DNA of 64,000 nucleotides, taken from positions 103,827-167,826 of IMG/VR virus record IMGVR_UViG_3300046810_000101; one strand, written 5' to 3'. Each line of letters starts with the position of its first letter. Position 1 is the stretch's first letter. Source of the stretch: a virus. Positions 57,148 to 57,224 of this stretch are shown one piece after another. A model generated the notes under the pieces. The model worked only from the letters and a program-made list of their open reading frames with translations. It made no database searches and had not been told where the DNA came from. The position numbers and the translations under genes were made by a program.

Positions 57148-57224
57148 TGGTGCAGTTAACGGGATTCGAACCCGTGTATGAGGAATTTAGAGTTCCCTGC
57201 TTTGCCAGACTTAGCTATAACTGC
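57148..57224 (-). tRNA. tRNA with CUA anticodon (putative amber suppressor)
   Basis: Acceptor GCAGTTA/TAACTGC (7 bp), anticodon stem GGGAA/TTCCT, loop CTCTAAA with U33 and anticodon CTA (57188-57190), T-arm ACGGG-TTCGAAT-CCCGT, A73 and CCA. No shift of the loop gives another acceptable anticodon, because U33 fixes it. It should read UAG. Its amino acid is not evident. Confidence 0.8.

Follow-up and report, generated by a model that had tools for sequence, protein, structure and literature searches.

Does a phage tRNA that reads UAG imply that UAG has ceased to be a stop codon in that phage? The question is raised by a virus in IMG/VR (record IMGVR_UViG_3300046810_000101, 167,826 bases), of which we analysed bases 103827-167826, a stretch of 64,000 nucleotides referred to here as the window. 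It encodes a tRNA with a CUA anticodon (Table 1). A preliminary description considered such a gene unusual in a T4-like phage and referred to the recoded phages of the gut, in which amber suppressor tRNAs are known. The analysis reported here instead points to a genuine amber tRNA, conserved among relatives, in a phage that, judged from its gene sequences, retains the standard code. The RNA module encoded beside this tRNA matters more than the tRNA itself and deserves a separate study.

The gene is intact. ARAGORN reads the anticodon as cta, and the fold is that of an ordinary class I tRNA with a short variable loop, despite the name "tRNA-Pyl", which is merely the label that the program gives to CTA. 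In the sequence (GCAGTTA TA GCTAAGTCTGGCAAAGC A GGGAA CTCTAAA TTCCT CATAC ACGGG TTCGAAT CCCGT TAACTGC A CCA), pairing is complete in the acceptor stem (7/7), the anticodon stem (5/5), and the T stem (5/5). The molecule is a cloverleaf of the Rfam tRNA family, scoring 66.1 bits against RF00005 (threshold 29), the second highest value among the 11 tRNAs of the window. Its anticodon loop, CTCTAAA, combines the CUA anticodon with U33, as an amber suppressor tRNA should. The stems, anticodon, and U33 given in the preliminary description are thus confirmed. By standard rules a CUA anticodon pairs with UAG only, and "amber tRNA" is thus the right decoding assignment. The amino acid is less easily read. 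The nearest tRNA relatives differ among members of the clade (Glu, Ile, Arg, Gly, and Cys), and an isotype taken from the nearest tRNA was rejected because the answers are inconsistent. Judged by amber suppressors in general, U35 and A73 are compatible with GlnRS or LysRS, and from these two bases charging with glutamine or lysine may tentatively be taken as the likeliest.

Table 1. Features of the window that bear on the amber tRNA and its surroundings
Feature	Position	Strand	Support and remarks
Cell-wall hydrolase (endolysin) gene	34211..34891	-	TAG stop; 3-codon in-frame extension before TGA
DUF4326 gene	40671..40952	-	TAG stop common to Milchi and Astolliot; extension scores non-coding
tRNA, CUA anticodon (amber tRNA)	57148..57224	-	Encoded CCA, discriminator A73, class I variable loop; ARAGORN, Rfam, conservation
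Element B	57232..57353	-	Read directly; near-identical in L141, L142
Element A	57382..57535	-	Inner stem covariation
tRNA-His(GTG)-like gene	57846..57921	-	Missed by ARAGORN; below Rfam threshold; unusual five-pair D arm
Acb1-family anti-CBASS 2H phosphoesterase	58186..58686	-	Pfam Acb1 E 1.9e-32; syntenic neighbour of RNA array

With its counterpart in the Pseudomonas phages Milchi and Astolliot, the late sigma factor gp55 shares 58% identity, which makes the phage T4-like, as the preliminary description had it. Both of these carry a CUA tRNA at the equivalent place (PQ464597, tRNA0003, in Milchi; OM982621 in Astolliot), flanked by an Acb1-like gene on one side and a tRNA-Cys/Leu pair on the other, with the same CUA loop and 75-80% identity over the aligned part. 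The public records label it "suppressor tRNA" in Milchi and tRNA-Leu in Astolliot. A search of IMG/VR with gp55 returned three further relatives (L141-L143), all with the gene in the same position, such that it is present in six of the six members found of this clade of T4-like Pseudomonas phages; a tight pattern for the clade's CUA tRNA had 0 matches in IMG/VR. When the six phages are aligned (the sequences comprise five distinct ones), standard pairs occupy 99% of pair cells, and the loop reads TCTAAA throughout. Compensating double changes are seen at 10 of the 20 stem pairs, compared with 4.4 in shuffled alignments, none of 500 of which reached the observed value. The compensated stems and the unvarying loop together argue that the tRNA is maintained and is not a relic.

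Whether the clade has recoded UAG can be judged from the use of TAG in its genes. According to codon-model gene calls, stops are distributed as TAA 158, TGA 98, and TAG 11 across the genome (11/267, approximately 4%) and as TAA 56, TGA 52, and TAG 6 in the window (6/114), which is the magnitude previously estimated (about seven TAG stops among some 130 genes). Rarity of TAG was considered as a sign of recoding or suppression and was rejected. Because T4, which to our knowledge has no CUA tRNA, shows an equal share in a 50-kb stretch (TAA 51, TGA 23, TAG 4; 4/78, Fisher p 0.75), it is no pointer to suppression. For the conserved genes that the three genomes compared (the present phage, Milchi, and Astolliot) have in common, the stops in the present phage are TAA 100, TGA 57, and TAG 5, and three of the five TAG-ending genes are doubtful reading frames; TAG nevertheless still terminates genes that are conserved in all three. 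We also read TAG as X and scanned the three genomes for homology continuing through the stop, with TGA and TAA as controls. The scan returned 2 cases for TAG, 7 for TGA, and 9 for TAA. Both TAG cases are doubtful, one lying upstream of a likely start codon and the other in a frame of unclear status, and no convincing conserved gene read through TAG was found. Extensions in frame beyond TAG stops are mostly short, mostly score as non-coding by codon usage, and are not conserved between genomes, and coding density under the standard code is 0.87-0.88. We conclude that the genetic code of the phage is the standard one.

The gene is also less exceptional than it had seemed. A CUA-tRNA pattern matches at least 120 stretches in IMG/VR; it also picks up other tRNAs, and many of its matches are confirmed as CTA tRNAs by ARAGORN. 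In GenBank, phages with CTA tRNAs outside the recoded clades include Pectobacterium phage CBB, where the gene is annotated as tRNA-Pyl, and Erwinia jumbo phages, e.g. pEa_SNUABM_12, carry tRNA-Pyl (CTA) genes (PMC7760394). Like the present phage, CBB and pEa_SNUABM_12 encode the CUA tRNA within a large set of phage tRNAs, although they belong to a different lineage with no close sequence relation. The recoded gut phages (crAss-like, Lak, and Phassvirus) share the phage-encoded CUA-anticodon tRNA but have many in-frame TAGs in their genomes, where none was detected here. With the gene found throughout a clade of six phages, already labelled in Milchi, and of a kind plentiful elsewhere, neither its supposed rarity nor the link to recoding is supported. 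A clade outside the gut can evidently keep an amber tRNA for a long time without recoding, and a CUA tRNA by itself should not be taken as evidence of code 15.

What is such a tRNA for? We consider it probable that it is functional and selectively maintained in a phage with the standard code, and that partial read-through of UAG in competition with RF1 brings a buffering benefit; the likeliest role would be that of a standing, inefficient suppressor. The tRNA would be co-transcribed with the RNAs upstream of it, excised by RNase P and the 3´ processing enzymes of the host, and charged by a host synthetase. During infection its amino acid would then be inserted at UAG against RF1, giving partial read-through. 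Suppression should cost little, since TAG stops are scarce among the phage genes and what follows them in frame is for the most part short and non-coding. The gain may lie in the tolerance of amber mutations or of incoming genes that contain amber codons, and host genes ending in TAG might in addition be mildly disturbed.

Other readings of the gene fare less well to varying degrees. An unlikely one is counter-defence: the CUA tRNA, the other phage tRNAs, and the two RNA elements described below would absorb or outlast host anticodon nucleases, with UAG decoding as a secondary matter. The gene does lie in a large tRNA array, with tRNA-mimic RNAs and a gene for the anti-CBASS protein Acb1 close by, and an invariant anticodon would likewise be expected of a decoy or of an RNA with some other use; however, nucleases that recognise sense tRNAs are unlikely to target a CUA anticodon. 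A program of read-through that would extend one or a few phage proteins at the C terminus appears more doubtful still. Its candidates are the DUF4326 gene, the TAG of which is common to three phages, and a gene pair outside the window (genome positions 94523-95065, minus strand). The latter consists of adjacent genes that share a reading frame, with TAG and two codons between them and a coding-like extension; read-through would fuse the two. Yet with a start codon two codons after the TAG these genes look like ordinary neighbours, and elsewhere the extensions are mostly short, non-coding by codon score, and not conserved from one genome to another.

We regard recoding proper, in which TAG is read as an amino acid in some genes (code 15) as in crAss-like, Lak, and Phassvirus phages, as very improbable. 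The CUA tRNA itself and the frequency of such genes among recoded phages (Sup-CTA tRNAs occur in 52% of predicted code-15 phages; PMC11210395) speak for it. With no conserved gene containing an internal TAG in three genomes, a coding density of 0.87-0.88 under the standard code, and TAG ending genes conserved in three phages, it appears nearly refuted. Least probable of all is that the gene is a relic or a near-neutral by-product of turnover in the tRNA array, with an anticodon that has drifted. The array does include odd, fragmentary-looking tRNAs, and the nearest relatives of the CUA tRNA vary by member, but drift would hardly leave the stems compensated and the CUA loop unchanged in all six phages.

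The odd-looking neighbours are of interest in their own right. Element B, which ends 7 nt upstream of the amber tRNA, is closed by a stem (GGATGG/CCATCC) that surrounds a T arm, the 3´ strand of an acceptor stem, a short loop, the 5´ strand of the acceptor, and a D arm, i.e. tRNA-Leu-like halves in permuted order. In element A, a stem GGATAC/GTATCC likewise encloses permuted tRNA halves (3´ half, short linker, 5´ half), and its inner stem covaries, reading GCGAC/GTCGC here, GCGGC/GCCGC in L141, and GCGGT/ACCGC in L142. Both elements are conserved in L141 and L142 and, in contrast to the amber tRNA, were not found in Milchi or Astolliot. Common to the two are the flanks GTTTT(A/T)GGATNNT(A/G)ACAGCA on the 5´ side and NNATCC on the 3´ side. 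A search of the window with the YrlA family (RF02553) gave no match for A or B. A cyanophage match to B, examined as a possible conserved permuted tRNA, was rejected as an ordinary tandem Arg-Leu pair.

Relatives of these elements are widespread among viral contigs. They are defined by a module, G[G/A]ATNN..ACAGCA..NNAT[C/T]CTG, that holds either a permuted tRNA mimic or a hairpin resembling an anticodon arm. The 5´ flank alone matches 74 stretches in IMG/VR. Downstream sequence is long enough in 60 distinct hits. The exact complement NNATCC follows within 240 nt in 57 of these, compared with 2.45 for mismatched partners, and 3 are without it. The variable bases occur in five forms (AG, AC, GG, GT, and GC), and the full pattern had 0 hits in a mononucleotide shuffle of 2.9 Mb. 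Approximately 13 inserts contain T-arm sequence and permuted tRNA halves, whereas 66 contain a short hairpin with an often anticodon-like loop (CTTTTAA 20 times; also CTCTTAA, CTTCTAA, and CTGCTAA). Since CCA directly precedes 62 of 79 module copies, the modules sit in tRNA arrays. A blastn search with the small element gave no match among GenBank phages, and a search of Rfam with the module copies gave no family hit other than one partial match to YrlA (RF02553). This best relative, in L161, covers T arm, acceptor-like hairpin, and D arm, and scores 39.5 bits, below the gathering threshold of 69 that marks membership of that family. The resemblance lies in the architecture, a stem that encloses T arm, closed acceptor-like hairpin, and D arm, as in the YrlA Y RNAs. 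The module GGATNN..ACAGCA..NNATCC differs from the YrlA consensus, and many of its relatives carry the anticodon-arm-like hairpin instead. Within the scope searched, a compact and strongly covarying RNA module that occurs in dozens of viral contigs is thus missing from Rfam. As a separate observation, tRNA genes in L158 (405-514) and in L155 (minus strand, downstream of the element) carry, behind the D arm, an insert of approximately 40 nt in which ATTCTG and GAAT..ACAGCA occur, the two strands of the module in reverse order. These are possibly linear counterparts of the permuted elements, or tiny introns.

The module has a putative protein partner. DUF2828 (PF11443), a family of unknown function, is encoded in 14 of 17 other module contigs; among longer control contigs with tRNAs, it is encoded in 4 of 24 (Fisher p 7e-5, for contigs that are not independent). 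In a set of 160 DUF2828 loci, 70 module copies lie on the strand of the gene and 0 on the opposite strand, as counted with a looser pattern that had been adjusted to part of these loci. The strict pattern had 0 matches in a second set, of 80 DUF2828 loci, where a looser stem pattern, chosen after inspection of these loci, revealed the module just upstream of the gene in several. In 16 cases measured, the module copy ends 29-83 nt before the start of the DUF2828 match. In L222, L232 (801-850), L292-L295, and L297, the end of the module lies approximately 30 nt before the DUF2828 start codon, which suggests that the protein could regulate its own mRNA. The contig of the window itself has no DUF2828 gene and ends inside the tRNA cluster; in L141 the gene is found on the far side of this cluster.

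An AlphaFold model of DUF2828 (57 sequences, pLDDT 80.8) matches Ro60 with Z 20.2 over 409 residues at 13% identity. The best ten VIA rows are all Ro60/TROVE, and Foldseek agrees. The predicted fold is thus that of Ro60, and the family of elements is encoded together with a Ro60-like protein. In contrast to the Ro60/Rsr RNPs, the putative partner here is DUF2828, with no TROVE-domain match passing the cut-off: the TROVE model of Pfam gave one weak match below it, in Milchi, and TROVE hits in a sequence search of the PDB were weak only. Ro60 as such is already known from phages, as in the Thermus phage phiLo structure that Foldseek matched and in jumbo phage pir03 (PMC7765460), and TROVE proteins occur in jumbo phages (PMC7824862).

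Elements A and B could alternatively be circularly permuted tRNA genes, matured through permuted introns. We favour Y-RNA-like mimics over this because of the YrlA match, the short acceptor loops (GAAA, TTAG, and TTCAT), and the link to the Ro60 fold. A and B thus fit best as Y-RNA-like mimics of tRNA that belong to a phage Ro60 particle, for which the association is well supported and binding is putative. "Broken" tRNA genes in phage tRNA arrays would be explained as tRNA mimics, and through the tie of the module to DUF2828 a phage Ro60-Y RNA particle becomes open to direct test. The amber tRNA is tied to a particle of this type by position only. It is conceivable, at somewhat below even chances, that it comes last in a transcript from which two RNAs of an undescribed Y-RNA-like class are also made; bound by a phage Ro60 (DUF2828), these would act alongside the phage tRNAs in protecting or imitating tRNA in the face of host anticodon nucleases.

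Several observations concern the neighbouring genes. The tRNA-His-like stretch is 92-95% identical in Pseudomonas phages, including Ep020 and phiPsa374, and is unannotated in several of them; L142 has a canonical tRNA-His at the corresponding place. A lipase/SGNH-like gene (PHROG 6102; 55276-56537, minus strand) is interrupted near 56262 by a change of frame, such that its amino-terminal part forms a separate frame (56262-56537); it may be a broken gene, a frameshift, or an assembly error. In Astolliot (OM982621), no gene is annotated at positions ~89688-90944, the place that the baseplate hub lysozyme (gp5) occupies in Milchi. A YqeY-like protein (PHROG tRNA amidotransferase; 59651-60064, minus strand) adjoins the tRNA array in three phages, with 41-43% identity. 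Beside it lies an alginate lyase gene (60080-60793, minus strand; Pfam E 3.9e-40), in the place of which Milchi has a homing endonuclease; the lyase is fitting for a Pseudomonas host with alginate.
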